Shown here: piece after piece, positions 3,190 to 51,393 of the stretch | How positions within the stretch are numbered: the stretch's first letter is position 1 | How the letters are laid out: each line of letters opens with the position of its first letter | Source of the DNA: Rhodoglobus sp. | GTDB taxonomy: Bacteria > Actinomycetota > Actinomycetes > Actinomycetales > Microbacteriaceae | Length of the DNA stretch: 64,000 nucleotides | NCBI GenBank assembly: GCA_025463605.1 | Contig: JAODAV010000001.1 | Location: 186,001-250,000 of the forward strand | Direction: 5' to 3' | Notes under the pieces: generated by a model | Seen by the model: only the letters and a program-made list of their open reading frames with translations | Told to the model about the DNA's origin: nothing | The model's database searches: none | Translations under genes and position numbers: made by a program

Positions 3190-4247
3190 GCCCCCACCGC
3201 CGCTTTCGCCTGCTGTGGTACCTCTTCGGCGAAATGGCACGCCGTCAGATGCGCAGCGCCATCCTCCATCAGGATGGGTCGGGCCGTCGGCTGTTCGATG
3301 GTGCACCTCTCAGGATTGCCGAGTTGTTGTCGTAGCCAGCATCGTGGCGCGAAGATGCAGCCCTCGGCTGGGGGCTCGGTGGCGCCGAGCTCACTGCTCA
3401 CCCACGGTCGCTCCGAACGGGTCTCGGGGTCGCCGTTGGGCGCGGCCGAGATGAGCATGCGGGTGTACGGATGCCACGAGTCGTTCATGATCGCCTCGCG
3501 ACTGCCGACCTCGACGATGTGCCCCATGTAGAGCACCGCGATCCGGTCGCAGAAGAAGTTCACCACTCGCAAGTCGTGCGTGACCATGACCACCGTCAAC
3601 CCGAGGTCGTTCTTGAGCGAGTTGAGCAGGTTGAGCACCTGGGCCTGAATGGAAACATCCAGCGCGGACACCGGCTCATCAGCGATGAGCACGGAGGGTT
3701 CCACCGTCAGCGCCCTCGCCAGCACGATGCGCTGCCGCTGGCCACCGCTGAACTCGTGGGGGTAGCGCTCGAGCATCGACTCGTTGAGACCGACTCGGGC
3801 GAGCAACTCGGTCATCGACGCCGAGCGCTCGGCCGACGACATCCGGCGGCGTGCGTAGCCATCGGACAGGGTGTCCCGAATCGTCCGGAAGGGGTTGAGC
3901 GACGCGAAAGGGTTCTGGAAGACCATCTGCACGCGCCGCCGGAACGACCGGCGTTCCGGTCGGCTCATGGCCGCGACCACTCGGCCCTCGAAATGCACCT
4001 CGCCCTCGGTCGGGGTGTCGAAGCCGATGAGCAGGCGACCCAGGGTGGTCTTGCCCGATCCGCTCTCGCCGACGATCCCGAACGCCTCACCCCGGTAGAT
4101 GTCGACCGAAACCGCATCGAGGGCGGGGCGGGATCGCCGGCCACGCTTACGGCCGAAGCGTCGCTTGCGCTCGAAGTCTTTCGTCACGTTGCGCACCGAG
4201 AACAGGGGAACCAGCGCGTCCGCGGAGGTCTCGTCAGGTGTCGTCAC
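3186..4247 (-). CDS. Oligopeptide-type ABC transporter ATP-binding protein (OppF/DppF-like)
   Basis: This 353-residue cytoplasmic ATPase has Walker A GESGSGKTT (about residues 58-66), Q-loop VFQNPFASLNP, signature FSGGQRQRI, Walker B LIADEPVSALD and switch MVTHD. Its C-terminal CIFAPRC...CxxxxP...HLTACHF region is the oligopeptide/nickel transporter domain (oligo_HPY) with conserved cysteines. It forms the second of two different ATPases energising the permeases encoded upstream. The start ATG overlaps the preceding ATPase stop by four bases. The permease-ATPase-ATPase block is tightly coupled and probably translated from one message. Confidence 0.93.
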   Translation of the reverse strand: MTTPDETSADALVPLFSVRNVTKDFERKRRFGRKRGRRSRPALDAVSVDIYRGEAFGIVGESGSGKTTLGRLLIGFDTPTEGEVHFEGRVVAAMSRPERRSFRRRVQMVFQNPFASLNPFRTIRDTLSDGYARRRMSSAERSASMTELLARVGLNESMLERYPHEFSGGQRQRIVLARALTVEPSVLIADEPVSALDVSIQAQVLNLLNSLKNDLGLTVVMVTHDLRVVNFFCDRIAVLYMGHIVEVGSREAIMNDSWHPYTRMLISAAPNGDPETRSERPWVSSELGATEPPAEGCIFAPRCWLRQQLGNPERCTIEQPTARPILMEDGAAHLTACHFAEEVPQQAKAAVGA

Positions 4248-44431: not shown

Positions 44432-45586
44432 ATGCCAACAGCTGTCATCGTCGACGCGCTTCGCACCCCTTCGGGCCGAGGCAAGCCCGGCGGAGCCCTT
44501 TCGGGGCTCCACCCCGTCGACCTGCTCGCAACCGTGCTGAAAGAGCTCGTGAAGCGCAACGACCTCGACCCGGCGCTCATCGATGACGTCATCGGCGGGT
44601 GTCTGTCGCAAGTCGGCGAGCAGTCCGTGAACATCACTCGCAACGCCGTGCTCGCCGCCGGTTTTCCCGAATCGGTTCCCGGAACGACGGTCGACCGCCA
44701 GTGCGGTTCGAGCCAGCAGGCCGCGGCCTTCGCGGCGCAAGGCGTGATCGCCGGCGCCTACGACGTCGTGATCGCGTGCGGTGTGGAGCTCATGAGCAAG
44801 AACCCGATCGGCTACGCGACACTCGGCATGGATAACTGGGGCCCCATGGTGGCCGCCCGTTACCCGGATGGTCTCGTCGGGCAGGGCATCTCGGCCGAAC
44901 TCATCGCCGCGCGCTGGGATCTCTCGCGCCGCGCGCTCGACGAGTTCGCCGAGCGATCGCACCGCCTTGCCGGCGAGAGCGACTTCTCCTCGGAGATCCT
45001 TCCGATAGGCGAACTCACGACCGATGAGACGATCCGCCCCGGCACGACCGCGGATGACCTCGGCAACCTCAAGCCGGCCTTCCACGATGACGCGTACCGG
45101 CAGCTGTTTCCCGAAATCGAGTGGCGCATCACGGCCGGCAACTCGAGTCCGCTCACCGACGGCGCCTCCGCCGTGCTCATCATGAGCGAAGAGCGCGCCA
45201 TCGAGCTCGGGCTGCGGCCGCGGGCCCGATTCCACGCCTTCTCGGTGGTGGGCTCCGATCCCGTGGAGATGCTCACCGGCATCCTGCCTGCAACACAGAA
45301 GATCCTCGACCGCAGCGGGTTCGGCATCGACGACTTCGACACGTTCGAGGTGAATGAAGCCTTCGCATCCGTGCCGCTCGCGTGGCAGCACGAATTCGCC
45401 GTCGAACCCGATCTGGTCAACCCGCGCGGCGGGGCGATCGCGCTCGGGCACGCGCTCGGGTCATCCGGCACTCGGCTGCTCACGACGATGGTCAACCAGC
45501 TCGAGCACTCCAGCGGGCGCTACGGACTGCAAGTGATGTGCGAGGGTGCCGGCATGGCCAACGCGACGATCATCGAAAGGCTCTGA
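44432..45586 (+). CDS. Acetyl-CoA acetyltransferase (thiolase)
   Basis: 384 residues. The nucleophile Cys is in TTVDRQCGSSQQA, the His in GGAIALGHALGSSGTR, and the second Cys in MCEGAGMAN; VNEAFASVPLAW is also typical. It performs thiolytic cleavage (or condensation) of acyl-CoA. The next gene, a hydroxyacyl-CoA dehydrogenase, begins at the base after its stop, so the pair probably carries out the last two beta-oxidation-like steps. A promoter box six bases upstream suggests a leaderless start as well as read-through. Confidence 0.93.
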   Translation: MPTAVIVDALRTPSGRGKPGGALSGLHPVDLLATVLKELVKRNDLDPALIDDVIGGCLSQVGEQSVNITRNAVLAAGFPESVPGTTVDRQCGSSQQAAAFAAQGVIAGAYDVVIACGVELMSKNPIGYATLGMDNWGPMVAARYPDGLVGQGISAELIAARWDLSRRALDEFAERSHRLAGESDFSSEILPIGELTTDETIRPGTTADDLGNLKPAFHDDAYRQLFPEIEWRITAGNSSPLTDGASAVLIMSEERAIELGLRPRARFHAFSVVGSDPVEMLTGILPATQKILDRSGFGIDDFDTFEVNEAFASVPLAWQHEFAVEPDLVNPRGGAIALGHALGSSGTRLLTTMVNQLEHSSGRYGLQVMCEGAGMANATIIERL

Positions 45587-46348
45587 ATGCAGCTCAAGGA
45601 TGCCGCGGCTCTCGTCGCGGGAGGCGCCTCCGGCCTCGGCCTCGCCACCGCCCGTGCTCTCGCCGCGGCCGGCGCCCGCGTGCTCATCGTCGACCTGCCG
45701 ACCTCGCAGGGCAAGCACATCGCGGTCGAGCACGGGTTCACGTTCTCCCCCGCCGATGTCACCGACGAGCACGACGTCGCTCTCGCGGTCGAGGCCGCCA
45801 CCGAGCTCGGTCCGCTGCGCGTCGTCGTGAACTGCGCGGGGGTCGCGACTCCGGGCCGTGCGGTGGGCCGGGACGGCGCGCTGCCGCTCGCGACCTTCGA
45901 GAGAGTGATTGCGATCAATCTCACGGGCACGTTCAATGTGATCCGACTCGCGGCGGAAGCGATCATGGCCACGGAGCCCATCGGCGCTACGCCCGAGCGT
46001 GGCGTCATCGTCACCACGGCGTCGGTCGCGGCATTCGACGGGCAGGTCGGGCAGCCCGCTTACGCTGCATCCAAGGCGGCGGTCGCCGGGATGACGCTGC
46101 CGCTGGCTCGCGAATTCGCCCAGCACCTCATCCGGGTGGTGTCGATCGCCCCAGGCATCTTCGAGACGCCCATGATGGCCGGGCTCCCCCGGGAAGCGCA
46201 GGACTCGCTCGGCGCCCAGGTGCCGCACCCCGCGCGCCTCGGCAGGCCCGACGAGTATGCGGCGCTCGTGCGGCACATCGTCGAGAACCCCTACCTCAAC
46301 GGGGAGACGATCCGCCTCGACGGCGCGATCCGCATGCAGCCGCGCTAA
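45587..46348 (+). CDS. SDR-family 3-hydroxyacyl-CoA dehydrogenase (type II / HSD10-like)
   Basis: 253-residue short-chain dehydrogenase. AGGASGLGLATARAL is the NAD loop, NCAGVATPGR the NAG-type motif, and YAASKAAVAGM the catalytic YxxxK. The sequence DGQVGQPAYAASKAAV with IAPGIFETPMM matches 3-hydroxyacyl-/2-methyl-3-hydroxybutyryl-CoA dehydrogenases of isoleucine and short-chain degradation, whose thiolysis gives propionyl-CoA for the nearby methylcitrate operon. Zero-base gap to the thiolase gene. Confidence 0.88.
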   Translation: MQLKDAAALVAGGASGLGLATARALAAAGARVLIVDLPTSQGKHIAVEHGFTFSPADVTDEHDVALAVEAATELGPLRVVVNCAGVATPGRAVGRDGALPLATFERVIAINLTGTFNVIRLAAEAIMATEPIGATPERGVIVTTASVAAFDGQVGQPAYAASKAAVAGMTLPLAREFAQHLIRVVSIAPGIFETPMMAGLPREAQDSLGAQVPHPARLGRPDEYAALVRHIVENPYLNGETIRLDGAIRMQPR

Positions 46349-46366
46349 TCCCGCCGGGCGTGCCCC

Positions 46367-47359
46367 CTACTTCGACTTGCTCGTCGCCGACGCGTTCGAC
46401 TCGTATGACGTGTTCGTCGACTCGAAGAAGTTCACGAGCTGAAGCGTGTCGTTCGCGGCCGCCATCCACTTCGCCGGGTTCGACACGTTGTAGTGCGCCT
46501 CGAACCCGAGCTCCTCGAGGCGACGGTCTGCGAGGTACTTCACGTACTGGTTGATGTACGTGGAGTTGAGGCCGAGGATGCCGTTCGGGAGCAGGTCTCG
46601 GTTGTACTCCTCCTCCATCTCCACGGCATCCAGGATCATCTGTTTGATCTCGGTTGCGAACTCCTCCGTCTGCAGGTCGGGGTTCTCCTCGAGCACCGTG
46701 AGGATGAGGTTGATGCCGAACTTGAGGTGAAGGGACTCGTCGCGCACGACCCAGTCCATGAGCGACCCGAAGTTGCGCAGCAGGTTGCGCTGGCGGAACG
46801 ACAGCGCCACCATGAAGCCGGAGTAGAACCAGACGCCCTCGAGGATGACGTTGTACGCGATGAGGTTGCGCACGAAGTCCTTCATGCCCTCCGTCGTCGT
46901 GATGTCGAGAGTCTGCTCGGTCATGCGCTTGATGTACTTGACCTCGAACTCCTCCTTGCGCGCCATCGACGGGATCTCGACATGCGAGGCGTAGGCGGCG
47001 GCACGGTCGATCGGGAACGTCTCGAGCACGTACTCGAAGCTCATGCAGTGGTTGGCCTCCTCCCACATCTGCTTCGCGAGGTAGAGGCTGCATTCCGCCG
47101 CACTCACGTACGGGTACACGCCGAAGGCAAGCGCCTTGTTGACGAGCAGCTCGTTGGGGTTGAAGTAGCTCATGAGGAAGGTGACGGCGTGACGTTCCTC
47201 ATCCGTCATCTTCTTGAAGTCCGCGATGTCCTCACCGAGTTGGATCTCGTTGGGGAACCAGGTGTTCGCGACGGCCTGGTCGTACAGGTCCATCGCCCAC
47301 TGGTAGCGGATCGGTTTGAGCAGGAGGCCCTCTTGCAGGCCGGTTCCCAAAATGCCCAT
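46367..47359 (-). CDS. nrdB: Ribonucleotide reductase small subunit, class Ic type (Phe at the radical site)
   Basis: 330 residues. Metal ligands Glu70, Glu101, His104, Glu174, Glu208 and His211 are in place. The position that holds the radical Tyr in classical R2 (four after the ExxH His) is Phe108. All six ligands plus Phe108 and the C-terminal Tyr319 keep one constant offset of 19 from the published Chlamydia trachomatis R2 residues (E89, E120, H123, F127, E193, E227, H230, Y338). This marks the Mn/Fe, Tyr-radical-free class Ic. It pairs with NrdA to make dNDPs. It lies two bases after a 37-codon frame ending CESCQ. Confidence 0.93.
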   Translation of the reverse strand: MGILGTGLQEGLLLKPIRYQWAMDLYDQAVANTWFPNEIQLGEDIADFKKMTDEERHAVTFLMSYFNPNELLVNKALAFGVYPYVSAAECSLYLAKQMWEEANHCMSFEYVLETFPIDRAAAYASHVEIPSMARKEEFEVKYIKRMTEQTLDITTTEGMKDFVRNLIAYNVILEGVWFYSGFMVALSFRQRNLLRNFGSLMDWVVRDESLHLKFGINLILTVLEENPDLQTEEFATEIKQMILDAVEMEEEYNRDLLPNGILGLNSTYINQYVKYLADRRLEELGFEAHYNVSNPAKWMAAANDTLQLVNFFESTNTSYESNASATSKSK

Positions 47360-47361
47360 GA

Positions 47362-47475
47362 TTACTGGCAGCTTTCACATTGCAGGTCGTCCATCGGGTC
47401 TGTCGGCACGTAGTACTCCACGGTGCTTGTCGGGGCAGGGCTTGCCTCAAGTGTCTGCGTGTCACGATCCATCAT
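47362..47475 (-). CDS. 37-residue ORF ending CESCQ, probable detached redox tail of NrdA
   Basis: ATG at 47475 overlaps the nrdA TGA (ATGA); the stop is at 47362, two bases before nrdB. The peptide ends MDDLQCESCQ. A C-terminal CxxC on a flexible tail is what class I NrdA proteins use to pass electrons to the active-site disulfide, and NrdA here ends GSNNVAGA with no Cys. The tail could be a separate peptide, joined to NrdA by a -1 frameshift, or split off by a one-base deletion in the Ala/Gly-rich linker (biological or sequencing). The frame stays open upstream, so the slip point is not fixed. Confidence 0.6.
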   Translation of the reverse strand: MMDRDTQTLEASPAPTSTVEYYVPTDPMDDLQCESCQ

Positions 47476-49934
47476 GCGCCTGCCACGTTGTTGGAACCAG
47501 CACCGGACGCCAGTCCACCGAAGCCCCGGCGGGCGGGCGCAGACGGCGCCGCAGCAGCGCCCTCGACAGCGGCGGGAGCCTGCGCGCCGACCGTGACATC
47601 CTCGGACTTGTTCACCTTGACGGTGGACTGCTCGGCCGTGTGACGCGGCTTCATGTGCAGGTAGTACGTCGTCTTCACGCCGCGCTCCCATGCCGCGAAG
47701 TAGATGTCCATCATGTCGCCGAGGTCGCGCGTCTCGAGGTACATGTTGCGGCTGATGGACTGGTCGATCCACTTCTGGGCGCGAGCCGCGACCTCGAGGA
47801 ACGCGTACGGCGAGAGCTGGAAGCTCGTCTTGTACACGGCCTTGATGTGGTCGGGAATAGTCGCGATGCCCTGGATGTCGCCCTGGCTGCGCAGGATCGC
47901 CTCGCGCGTCGACTCCCAGATTCCGAGCTTCTGCAGGTCGTTCACGAGGTTGCGGTTGACCTCGAGGAACTTACCGTTCGAGGTGGCGCGGCTGAAGATC
48001 TGTGAGAACTGCGGGTCGAGGCCCGGCGTCGTACCCGCAACGAGACCGATGGATGCCGTTGGCGCGATCGCCATGAGCGTCGCGTTGCGCATGCCGCCCT
48101 TGACCTTCGCCCGAAGCGCGTCCCAGTCGAGACGGGTCTTGCGGTTGACCTTGATCTCGACGCCGCGATCGGCCTCGGTGAGGGCGATGGAGTCGAGCGG
48201 CACGAGGCCCTCCGACCACCGGCTGCCCTCGAAGTTCGGGTAGGAACCGCGCTCCCTCGCGAGGTCGGCGCTCTCGTCGATCGCCGCGTACGAGACGTGC
48301 TCCATGATCTCGTCGATGAGGTCGTATGCCTCTTCGCTCTCGTAGCTGATGCCGAGCTTCTCAATGATGTCGGTGAAGCCCATCACACCGAGACCGACGG
48401 CGCGGTTCTGGTGGTTCGAGAAGTCGGCCTCCTTGACGCTCGAGCGCGTGATGTCGATGAGGTTGTCGAGCTGGCGCACCGCGAGGCGAGCCGTCTCTTC
48501 GATGCGCGAGAAATCGAGCTTTCCGGCGTCGTCCAGATGCTGCGACAGGTTGATCGAGGCGAGGTTGCAGACGGAAACATTGTCTTCGTCCTGCGGGAGC
48601 GTGATCTCCGTGCACAGGTTGGAGAGGTGGATCGTGCCCGTGTTGTTGTTGAGGGCGCGATTGTTGATCGTGTCTTTCCAGGTGAGCCACGGGTGGCTCG
48701 TGGTCTGGAGGGAGATAAGGATCGCCTTGAACTGCTCGCGCGCCGTCACCTTCTTGAACATGCGCAGCTCGCCCGCCTCGGCCTTGGCGGCGTACTCGGC
48801 GTAACGCTCGGAGAACGCCTTGCCGTAGAGCTCGTTGAGGTCGGCGACCTCGAGCGGGTCGAAAAGGTACCAGTCGTCGTCGTTCTGCACGCGCTTCATG
48901 AACTCGTCGCTGATCCACACTGCCGTGTTGGCGGTGCGCGTGCGGCGGTAGGGGTCGCCGGAGTTCTGGCGCAGGTCGAGGAACTCCGGGAAGTCGAGGT
49001 GCCAGTTTTCCATGTAGAAGCACAGCGCACCGAACTTCTTGCCGCCGCGGCTGACCGCACGCAGGATCGAGTCGATCGTGTGCATGAACGGGATCGGGCC
49101 CGTCGAGGTGGTGTTGTTGGAGCGGATGGGCGAGCCCTGGGCGCGCAGCTTGGTCACGGAGAGTCCGATTCCGCCGGTGCCCTTGGTCAGCCACATCACA
49201 TCGCGCGTCGTCTTCGCGATGTGCTCCATGTCATCCTGCATCTCCATGACGAAGCAATTGGCGAGCTGCGGGTAGACCGTGCCCGCGTTGACGAGCGTCG
49301 AGCCGGCGGCCACGTATTGGAGGCTCGACAATTTGCGATAGAACGCCAGGGCCGCCTCGTTGGGATCCCTTTCATTGAGCACGAGGCCCATGGCGATGCG
49401 CATCCAGAAGTACTGGGGAACCTCGAGGGCATCCCCGTTGCGACCCTTGATGCCGTAGCGGTTGTTGAGCGTCACGACACCGATGTACTTGAGCAGCTCG
49501 TCGTGGGCGGGCTCGAGGTGGCTCGCGAGGTACTCGAGGTCGAAGAGTTCGACGAGACGGGAGTCGAGCAGTCCTTCTTCTACGCCGCGCGTGACATTGG
49601 GTGCGAAGTGGGAGCGGTGGAGCTGCTTGAGTTCGTGCGCCGTCTCGTAGTCGCCGAGCACGCGCTTGTAGATGGTCTTGAGCAGCAGTCGGGCCGCGAC
49701 CACGTCGAATGCGGGGTCATCTTTGACGTTCTGCAGGGCGACCTGGATGACCGCCTCATCGAGCTGCTGGGTGGTGATGCCGTCGAAAAGGGTGAGTTCG
49801 AGCTCGGACGCGATCTGCGTCACCCACGTGATGTTCTCGTCGAGGCCGGCGCTTGCGGCCTCGATCGCCAGGTTGATCTTGTTCGCGTCGTACGGCTCGC
49901 GCTCTCCGCTGCGCTTGACGACTGTAATTGTCAC
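47472..49934 (-). CDS. nrdA: Ribonucleotide reductase large (catalytic) subunit
   Basis: 820 residues. An ATP-cone opens the protein (VVKRSGEREPYDANKINLAIEAAS). ANCFVMEMQDD and LSNLCTEITLP supply active-site Cys residues; a third catalytic Cys is in DNVSVCNLASINLS. It reduces ribonucleotides using the radical supplied by NrdB. The C-terminus is an Ala/Pro/Gly linker ending without Cys, so the shuttle CxxC is missing from this frame and is found in the next one. GTG start with AGGGAG six bases upstream; two NrdR boxes lie about 90 bp upstream. Confidence 0.94.
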   Translation of the reverse strand: MTITVVKRSGEREPYDANKINLAIEAASAGLDENITWVTQIASELELTLFDGITTQQLDEAVIQVALQNVKDDPAFDVVAARLLLKTIYKRVLGDYETAHELKQLHRSHFAPNVTRGVEEGLLDSRLVELFDLEYLASHLEPAHDELLKYIGVVTLNNRYGIKGRNGDALEVPQYFWMRIAMGLVLNERDPNEAALAFYRKLSSLQYVAAGSTLVNAGTVYPQLANCFVMEMQDDMEHIAKTTRDVMWLTKGTGGIGLSVTKLRAQGSPIRSNNTTSTGPIPFMHTIDSILRAVSRGGKKFGALCFYMENWHLDFPEFLDLRQNSGDPYRRTRTANTAVWISDEFMKRVQNDDDWYLFDPLEVADLNELYGKAFSERYAEYAAKAEAGELRMFKKVTAREQFKAILISLQTTSHPWLTWKDTINNRALNNNTGTIHLSNLCTEITLPQDEDNVSVCNLASINLSQHLDDAGKLDFSRIEETARLAVRQLDNLIDITRSSVKEADFSNHQNRAVGLGVMGFTDIIEKLGISYESEEAYDLIDEIMEHVSYAAIDESADLARERGSYPNFEGSRWSEGLVPLDSIALTEADRGVEIKVNRKTRLDWDALRAKVKGGMRNATLMAIAPTASIGLVAGTTPGLDPQFSQIFSRATSNGKFLEVNRNLVNDLQKLGIWESTREAILRSQGDIQGIATIPDHIKAVYKTSFQLSPYAFLEVAARAQKWIDQSISRNMYLETRDLGDMMDIYFAAWERGVKTTYYLHMKPRHTAEQSTVKVNKSEDVTVGAQAPAAVEGAAAAPSAPARRGFGGLASGAGSNNVAGA

Positions 49935-50020
49935 GAAAAACTCCCTCTGCTGCCCTGAAAAGGACCGCGTTGCATCCCCGAAACCTGCTTCTACCGTAAC
50001 CCCCGGCCGAGCGGTTCCAC

Positions 50021-50034
50021 CACTATATATCGTG
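50021..50034. promoter_or_regulatory. NrdR box 1 upstream of nrdA
   Basis: CACTATATATCGTG closely matches the NrdR consensus (ACACWATATATWGTGT). The second box lies 32 bp (three helical turns) away, the spacing NrdR needs. NrdR represses nrd genes when (d)ATP is abundant. Confidence 0.75.
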
Positions 50035-50052
50035 CGACCGACAGTCGTTCAA

Positions 50053-50066
50053 CCCTAGATGTAGTG
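50053..50066. promoter_or_regulatory. NrdR box 2 upstream of nrdA
   Basis: CCCTAGATGTAGTG is a weaker NrdR-box match, 32 bp from box 1 and in the same register. The tandem arrangement strengthens both calls. Confidence 0.6.
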
Positions 50067-50184
50067 GGCGTGTCATCCACAGGTGTGTATAAGTCGGCGG
50101 ACTTGTCCACAGGATATCTACCCCCTCCGACGGTCACGGAGGCCCCGATTTCCGGGCTTCGGCCGGGTCTAAGCTGGTGCTCTT

Positions 50185-51393
50185 GTGAGTAGCTACGTCG
50201 GCCTGTTGAAAACCCCCGGGGTCGCGCGGATCATCGCCGCGCAACTGACCGCAAGGTTTCCGAGCGGCATGCTCTCGCTCGCTTACCTGCTTCACATTGA
50301 GAGGACGCTCGGCTCCTACGGCGCCGCTGGCCTCGTGCTCGCGGCGACGAGCGTCGGCCAGGCGATCGCCGGACCGCTCACGAGCCGCTGGATGGGCGTG
50401 TGGGGGATGCGCCGAGTACTCACGCTCACGCTCATCGTGTGCGCGGCATCCATCTTCTCGATCGCGCTCATCCCCATGTCGCTGCCCTTCTACATGCTCG
50501 TCGGATTCATCGGCGGACTCAGTACGCCGCCCATCCAGCCGGCGGTGCGCACCATCTACCCGAAGATGGTCAACTCGCGCCAGCTCACTCCGCTGTTCTC
50601 GCTCGATGCCTCGGCCCAGGAGATCATCTGGGTGGCCGGCCCGGTCATCACGACCTTCGTCGCCGTGCAGATCTCGACCGTGCTCGCCATCCTCATCGCG
50701 GGGGCGTTCCTCATCGGCGGGGGCATCTGGTTCATCCTGTCGCCGGAAGTCGGGCGTGTTCGAATTCCCCGCAGCAAGCGCAACTTCGGCACGGTGCTTG
50801 CGAGACCCGCGGTGCTGCTGTCGACCATCACGGGATTCCTGCTCGTCGCGGCGGCGGCCGCGATCGAGGCGGGAGTCGTCGCGGTGTTCGGCCACGGCGG
50901 TCCGCAGGCAGGCATCGTGCTCGCGATCTGGGCTATCGGATCCCTTGCTGGCGGGCTTGCACTCGGTCACATCCCGATCGGACCGTGGGCTCTCGCCCGC
51001 AGGATGTTCGTGGTGTTCGTCGGAATGGCGCTCGCCATGTTCGGCCTCAACTTCTGGTGGCTCGCTTTCGCCCTGCTCATCGCCGGCATCGGCATCGCGC
51101 CGGCCCTCACGGTGATCTTCGCGATCGTCTCGTCGAGCGTGAAGTTCAGCGACACGGCCGAGGCCTACGGCTGGGTCGGAACGGGGCAGCTCATCGGCGC
51201 GGCCGTCGGCTCGGCGACCGCGGGCTTCCTCATCGACGCGAACGGAGCGATCGGCGGCTTCTGGGCGGCCACATCGTTCGCGCTCATCGGATTCCTGGTG
51301 CCCGCCCTGCTGCGGCGATGGCATCCCGACTTGCGGGGTCGCGACGCGAGCCCCATTCCCGACACCGAACCGGTGCCGGTGCAGCCGAGCTAA
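50185..51393 (+). CDS. Major facilitator superfamily transporter
   Basis: 402 residues with about 12 membrane spans (AAGLVLAATSVGQAIAGPLTSRWMGVWGMRRVLTL holds the first cytoplasmic loop motif; two six-span halves are apparent). Probably a drug or metabolite efflux protein; the substrate is unknown. GTG start at 50185. A TAAGCT box at 50170-50175 implies a leader of only a few bases. Divergent from nrdA across 250 bp that carry the NrdR boxes. Its last four bases overlap the convergent FMN reductase gene. Confidence 0.85.
   Translation: MSSYVGLLKTPGVARIIAAQLTARFPSGMLSLAYLLHIERTLGSYGAAGLVLAATSVGQAIAGPLTSRWMGVWGMRRVLTLTLIVCAASIFSIALIPMSLPFYMLVGFIGGLSTPPIQPAVRTIYPKMVNSRQLTPLFSLDASAQEIIWVAGPVITTFVAVQISTVLAILIAGAFLIGGGIWFILSPEVGRVRIPRSKRNFGTVLARPAVLLSTITGFLLVAAAAAIEAGVVAVFGHGGPQAGIVLAIWAIGSLAGGLALGHIPIGPWALARRMFVVFVGMALAMFGLNFWWLAFALLIAGIGIAPALTVIFAIVSSSVKFSDTAEAYGWVGTGQLIGAAVGSATAGFLIDANGAIGGFWAATSFALIGFLVPALLRRWHPDLRGRDASPIPDTEPVPVQPS

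Follow-up and report, generated by a model that had tools for sequence, protein, structure and literature searches.

A detached redox tail of class Ia ribonucleotide reductase in Microbacteriaceae, probably a free micropeptide acting in trans

Ribonucleotide reductase (RNR) is essential, and the redox arm at the C-terminus of the class I large subunit is regarded as a disordered segment integral to it. According to the accessible part of one source (PMC9669993), a C-terminal CXXC is present in most class I RNRs, and split chains are mentioned for class II. The closest described system is the class II NrdJa/NrdJb of Pseudomonas aeruginosa, in which, as stated in the accessible part of PMC4520616, the separate NrdJb chain performs dithiol exchange; a split-chain RNR is therefore already known, in class II. 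Here, a 64,000-nucleotide stretch of Rhodoglobus sp. (GenBank assembly GCA_025463605.1, contig JAODAV010000001.1, positions 186,001 to 250,000; referred to as the window) was analyzed, in which the redox tail of the class Ia large subunit NrdA is encoded by a separate small open reading frame (ORF) between nrdA and nrdB. In Microbacteriaceae with a class Ia RNR, this tail is very probably a free micropeptide that serves a tail-less NrdA in trans.

As in NrdJa/NrdJb, the redox cysteines are on a polypeptide of their own from the same operon, presumed to come from a fused ancestor (PMC4520616, accessible part). In contrast, NrdJa/NrdJb is a class II (B12) enzyme with an NrdJb of 229 amino acids (aa), while here a class I enzyme with nrdB and a peptide of about 22–40 aa is found, usually with more than one tail copy per genome, with phage and plasmid copies and with NrdH fusions. 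A split class II RNR proper was rejected for the window, as NrdA is best matched in NCBIfam by class I alpha subunits and nrdB is adjacent. Phage RNRs split by introns, inteins or homing endonucleases are likewise encoded in pieces, whereas here a functional boundary is cut, the split is conserved in a family, and no intron or intein lies at the nrdA–tail junction (compared with the accessible part of PMC3653736). Nothing resembling a detached class I tail was found in the accessible parts of PMC9531940 and PMC3653736, nor was a description of one found among the papers listed in searches of the open-access PMC literature, outside which subscription papers mostly lie. Like NrdH and the phage redoxins, the tail would be a small diffusible electron carrier of RNR, and two tails are fused to an NrdH-like domain, but the tail is far shorter and the tails tested had no family match. 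It corresponds to a relay segment that is normally part of RNR itself.

The genes concerned in the window are the following.

47472..49934, minus strand: nrdA, class Ia RNR large subunit, 820 aa; GTG start at 49934, TGA stop at 47474-47472.
47362..47475, minus strand: detached redox-tail ORF; 37 aa if started at the ATG at 47475, 36 aa if at the ATG at 47472.
46367..47359, minus strand: nrdB, class I small subunit, 330 aa; PF00268 at E=1.1e-73, a normal small subunit.

The nrdA product has the C-terminus ..RRGFGGLASGAGSNNVAGA with no CxxC, and an Ala/Gly/Pro linker forms the NrdA end (..PARRGFGGLASGAGSNNVAGA), without C-terminal redox cysteines. The tail frame (47475-47362) reads MMDRDTQTLEASPAPTSTVEYYVPTDPMDDLQCESCQ, with CESCQ at its end and the final residues YVPTDPMDDLQCESCQ; the range 47362-47560 comprises the tail and the end of the nrdA linker. 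These readings bear out a first-pass annotation of the letters, which had described an NrdA without the C-terminal CxxC and the CESCQ in a separate overlapping frame. The nrdA stop overlaps the tail start as ATGA with the first ATG and as TGATG with the second, and 2 bp separate the tail stop from the nrdB ATG (47359). In NrdA, the Pfam domains PF02867 (barrel, E=1.2e-168), PF00317 (all-alpha) and PF03477 (ATP-cone) were found, and NF005101 was matched in NCBIfam with 1622.8 bits; the class Ia NrdAB domain set is complete in the window, while the C-terminal redox cysteine pair is absent from the NrdA chain. NrdA retains the cysteines in ..LANCF.., ..NLCTEI.. and ..VCNLASINL.., which we take to be the catalytic ones of E. 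coli NrdA. Its nearest relatives are from Rhodoglobus and Salinibacterium.

A profile of 23 tails, the window tail among them, recovered the tail ORF in its own genome at E=2.2e-12. Against curated families, three tails gave no match in NCBIfam, three gave none in PHROGs, and three gave a single Pfam match at E=0.32, far below the cut-off; an Rfam search of 45000-51000 also gave no match. Judged by the profile match and by the place and motif kept across the family, the tail ORF is more than a chance frame.

In the proposed mechanism, the severed redox tail of NrdA would be made as a free micropeptide of about 22–40 aa with the core Y.VP.DPMD.LQC[DE]SCQ. In the window, where it is encoded between nrdA and nrdB, translation would begin at its own start codon, by re-initiation coupled to the nrdA stop (ATGA/TGATG). 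The peptide may dock on NrdA in trans through the conserved VP.DPMD segment, a docking role that is a guess, and its CxSC pair would hand electrons to the active-site disulphide formed at each turnover; the oxidised peptide would then be re-reduced by thioredoxin or NrdH. A second, stand-alone copy could top up the peptide from an NrdR-type promoter.

To compare the arrangement among relatives, NrdA loci from 60 searched genomes (L002-L030) and from named contigs (L031-L110), two overlapping sets, were read together with the window locus. Of these 110 loci, 3 were cut before the nrdA end; among the 107 readable ones, a separate tail ORF lies right after nrdA in 102 (including L022, which was missed by the tail pattern and counted from its read sequence), the tail is fused to NrdA in two from other families (L028 and L029), and no tail follows nrdA in three (L070, L072 and L074). 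In the 80 named loci, the tail was separate and adjacent in 75, absent from the operon in three and cut in two. In each of the three genomes lacking an operon tail, a stand-alone tail gene was found at another place (E 3.0e-14, 2.1e-13 and 1.7e-12), on another contig in two genomes and about 1.9 Mb along the same contig in one. Catalytic and redox-cysteine parts on separate genes are thus conserved across the lineage, as in a split RNR. Whether relatives encode the tail fused was a check proposed in the first-pass annotation; Microbacteriaceae proved split, with fusion only in other families, and the suggestion of a split enzyme with a detachable redox peptide gains support from the family-wide separate ORF and the distant copies. 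One locus (L027) has an extended NrdA frame with the tail intact, which looks like a local base-level problem in one genome.

Co-occurrence of tail and enzyme was assayed in 398 Microbacteriaceae genomes, with thresholds of E<=1e-100 for class Ia NrdA and E<=0.01 for the tail. NrdA was found in 170 genomes and a tail match in 179, that is, in 170/170 NrdA-positive and in 9/228 NrdA-negative genomes; among the nine NrdA-negative cases, seven genomes are 77–94% complete and the other two have weak matches (E 0.0013 and 0.00996).

The ratio of nonsynonymous to synonymous variation (pN/pS) was calculated over the last 16 codons of the tail. Operon copies (100 loci, 73 distinct), which were reached through NrdA, gave 0.24 and stand-alone copies (34 loci, 28 distinct) 0.15, while the same tail DNA read in shifted frames gave 2.4–3.9; the 0.20 of viral tails is biased, as these were collected by an amino-acid pattern. 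From these ratios, the tail is under purifying selection. The two cysteines are conserved throughout 100 operon, 34 stand-alone and 81 viral copies, although the collecting pattern itself requires C..CQ; this pattern accepted all the operon tails presented to it (100/106 loci, the other six being three cut and three tail-less) and 81/83 viral loci.

The same motif is found in cis outside the family. A search of 297 genomes of the order gave 25 tail matches, namely the own genome, one weak match in the family and 23 outside it. Of the latter, 22 lie inside open frames of 869–1108 aa and one (L172) in a 458-aa frame, and when read all 23 are NrdA C-termini with the tail motif fused. The fused class Ia NrdAs (families f5, f9, f10, f16 and f18 of the order) carry the homologous motif after an Ala/Pro/Gly-rich linker with [RK]GFG elements, so the tail is in cis there and free in Microbacteriaceae. 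A fused end such as ..VGGVACPVDPMEALQCESCQ closely resembles the free form ..VGGYAVPVDPMDLLQCDSCQ, while the fused forms printed have an extra cysteine (CP) at the position taken by V or I in the free form (VP/IP). The [RK]GFG elements recur in NrdA linkers, split and fused alike (L001-L110, L150-L172). In an NrdA tree of 98 rows, a branch with support 88/89 sets apart 91 split bacterial rows, and another (97/79) the six fused rows, the only ones long enough for the tree; the phage NrdA of L311 has a long branch owing to an intein-like insert. The tree fits a single origin of the split.

A second tail is common. At least two tail matches were found in 154 of the 170 NrdA-positive genomes, and the 150 family tail places among the matches listed comprise 73 directly after nrdA and 77 elsewhere. 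In the genome of the window, the second tail (MDNDSDNVGGYAVPVDPMDLLQCDSCQ) is a stand-alone gene at G000:C11:131335-131415 (L146; E=7.4e-13), with GAGGAGG as a ribosome-binding site before its ATG, a GC-rich hairpin-like stretch after it and a hadA-like gene downstream. It is preceded by paired NrdR-like boxes, as nrdA is in the window.

50052..50067, minus strand: NrdR-box-like element 1 upstream of nrdA, CCACTACATCTAGGGT; from a motif scan, 16-bp limits set by hand.
50020..50035, minus strand: NrdR-box-like element 2 upstream of nrdA, GCACGATATATAGTGG; limits set by hand, 16-bp spacer to element 1.

This pair is the sole paired match of the NrdR-box scan in the window. With spacers derived from centre distances, a pair was found at 96/110 nrdA loci, 87 of them with a 16-bp spacer, and at 31 of 51 distinct non-operon host places that the tail pattern found in the loci analyzed. 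Paired NrdR boxes lie about three helix turns apart (PMC9110341, accessible part), and NrdR binding is best at a spacer of 15–17 bp (PMC12051234, accessible part), with which the 16 bp of the window agree. Of 34 loci selected by eye as stand-alone, 32 have a 17-bp spacer and 28 have a same-strand HadA-like gene downstream; that all 34 carry boxes is not an independent count, since these loci (31 distinct) were chosen after their promoters had been seen. By their predicted sites, both nrdA and the stand-alone tail genes with a box pair would belong to the NrdR regulon. An inverted repeat (GGAATGACA..GTG..CATTCC) was observed between the boxes in many stand-alone tail promoters (e.g., L146 at about 1395-1425), and was not seen in the nrdA promoters printed.

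Tail copies were also found on phages and plasmids. Scanning IMG/VR, whose records may be fragments, with the tail profile gave 231 matching stretches, of which 190 were confirmed and 80 kept; all 80 have an in-frame start giving a free peptide of 16–34 aa, and some of the open frames reach further upstream. Tail ORFs are easily overlooked: in Pontimonas phage phiPsal1 and the Clavibacter phages CMP1 and CN1A, all phages of Microbacteriaceae, they follow holin or lysis-region genes, and no gene or feature is annotated over them. Nineteen plasmid records carry a tail (15 Clavibacter, 3 Leifsonia and 1 Gryllotalpicola), and these copies are annotated as 'hypothetical protein' in 12 cases, as 'ribonucleotide-diphosphate reductase subunit beta' in one and with no listed gene in six. 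The copy named as subunit beta is the 33-aa WP_223361114.1 (L307:4953-5054). The E-values of the named-phage tails (0.008–0.9) and plasmid tails (0.02–1) are weak because the queries were short, and these tails were accepted on motif and host, plus position for the phages.

An RNR large subunit was found in 1 of 50 tail-bearing viral records (the 46 longer of the 80 contigs and four named phages). This record, the viral contig G732 (L274/L311), has the order tail-nrdA-nrdB; its NrdA is likewise tail-less at the C-terminus and has the intein-like insert after the NLC motif. When whole NrdA was searched against named phages, ordinary phage RNRs were among the matches listed. It is rather likely that the tail is now an exchangeable, mobile micropeptide, encoded at two host loci of which one is NrdR-boxed, and brought in further copies by phages and plasmids, mostly RNR-less, that would feed or control the host NrdA. 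The nameable viral neighbours were terminase large subunit (10), holin families (4, 3, 3, 2 and 2) and endolysin (3) upstream (62/69 proteins scanned), and portal (8) downstream (55/60 proteins scanned). Two consecutive tail-like ORFs (..YLPPDPANAFACESCQ and ..YAVPIDPMDDLQCESCQ) were observed on one viral contig (L240:3422-3771). In Pseudanabaena phage Pan2 (L306, about 3980-4060), a related 26-aa frame reads MDDFDTIDGFACPNDPADLVSCESCQ, where Pan2_27 is annotated in another frame; it resembles fused actinobacterial tails, and the cyanobacterium recorded as the phage host may need checking.

Several points weigh against a free tail acting in trans. The Shine-Dalgarno (SD) sequence before the window tail is weak, and direct reduction of NrdA by a redoxin without a tail is possible in principle. 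No NrdR-like pair was found at 20 of the 51 non-operon host copies, most of which are from genomes chosen for many tail copies, or at any of 80 viral tail loci. The presence of two slightly different tail copies per genome is left unexplained. Terminase, portal, holin or endolysin genes are unexpected neighbours for an RNR helper, and many phage copies sit in late gene modules. Finally, the split row L093 is titled Cellulomonadaceae yet groups with Pontimonas in the NrdA tree, being either a mislabelled metagenome-assembled genome or a sign that the trait extends beyond one family.

The best surviving alternative is that the peptide is an RNR assembly or regulatory factor, for example an oxidised-tail sensor or a competitive inhibitor, while NrdA is reduced by a redoxin without an intermediary. 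Such a factor would fit with the additional copies that stand behind NrdR-like boxes or are carried by phages and plasmids, and with the deviation of some viral and extra copies from CxSC (CEACQ, CEGCQ). However, sister families have the same motif as the cis tail of their NrdA, the cysteine pair is conserved in all three groups of copies within the limits of the C..CQ pattern, and two tails are fused to an NrdH-like domain; a regulatory factor is thus considered unlikely.

Less probable still, and very unlikely, would be programmed -1 frameshifting, one of the explanations listed in the first-pass annotation, which would join the tail to part of the NrdA and give a mixture of short and full-length chains. 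The tail does lie in the -1 frame beside the nrdA stop in 64 of the 75 named loci, but it lies in frame 0 behind the stop in seven and in +1 in four. The best-placed tail start overlaps the nrdA stop exactly, as TGATG (one base) in 41/75 and as ATGA (four bases) in 14/75, which is typical of re-initiation, and an SD-like 4-mer lies upstream of the tail in 57/75. Moreover, stand-alone, plasmid and phage copies have no preceding nrdA, and in the three genomes with only a distant tail neither frameshifting nor read-through can join it to NrdA because its gene lies elsewhere; a frameshift therefore fails as the general mechanism. Stop-codon read-through was rejected on the frame relations and the same three genomes. 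It was also considered whether fused NrdA accounts for the long open frames (up to 1475 aa) that surround some tail matches, a reading rejected on the frame relations: of the 73 operon-adjacent places (among the matches listed), 63 are in -1, four in +1 and six in frame 0, and none is a fusion because 67 are out of frame and the six frame-0 frames have only 27–59 aa. A sequencing or assembly error, or the recent one-base deletion also considered in the first-pass annotation, has next to no probability as the cause of a broken fused gene here, for although the assembly, which has one class Ia NrdA, is in 65 contigs with 87% estimated completeness, the split occurs across Microbacteriaceae including named isolates, in all frames and with conserved start-stop overlaps. 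The condition named in the first-pass annotation, fused relatives with this genome as the only exception, does not apply.

With the tail as a free peptide serving NrdA in trans, a natural class I enzyme would be at hand in which the role of the arm is directly testable. It also suggests that deoxynucleoside triphosphate supply may be settable by peptide dosage, and that phages could act on the host RNR with a gene of <100 bases.

Links between tail and NrdH were found at several loci. In Naasia lichenicola (L114/L324, G062:C5), the tail is fused to an NrdH-like domain (structure 4fiw, E=1.5e-9) whose CxxC reads DPDC, and in a second fusion (L316, G121:C26) the match to 4fiw (E=8.5e-10) begins after the CxxC region, so that the redoxin dithiol has seemingly been lost in both. 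At L313:6250-6560, an nrdH with CVQC (structure 4hs1, E=1.1e-23) begins at the end of a tail gene with a TGATG overlap, and another tail lies within the same 12-kb stretch. Extra tail copies that end a protein of about 90 aa (..GEPA.ADMW..AH..) were observed at L314, L317 and L318.

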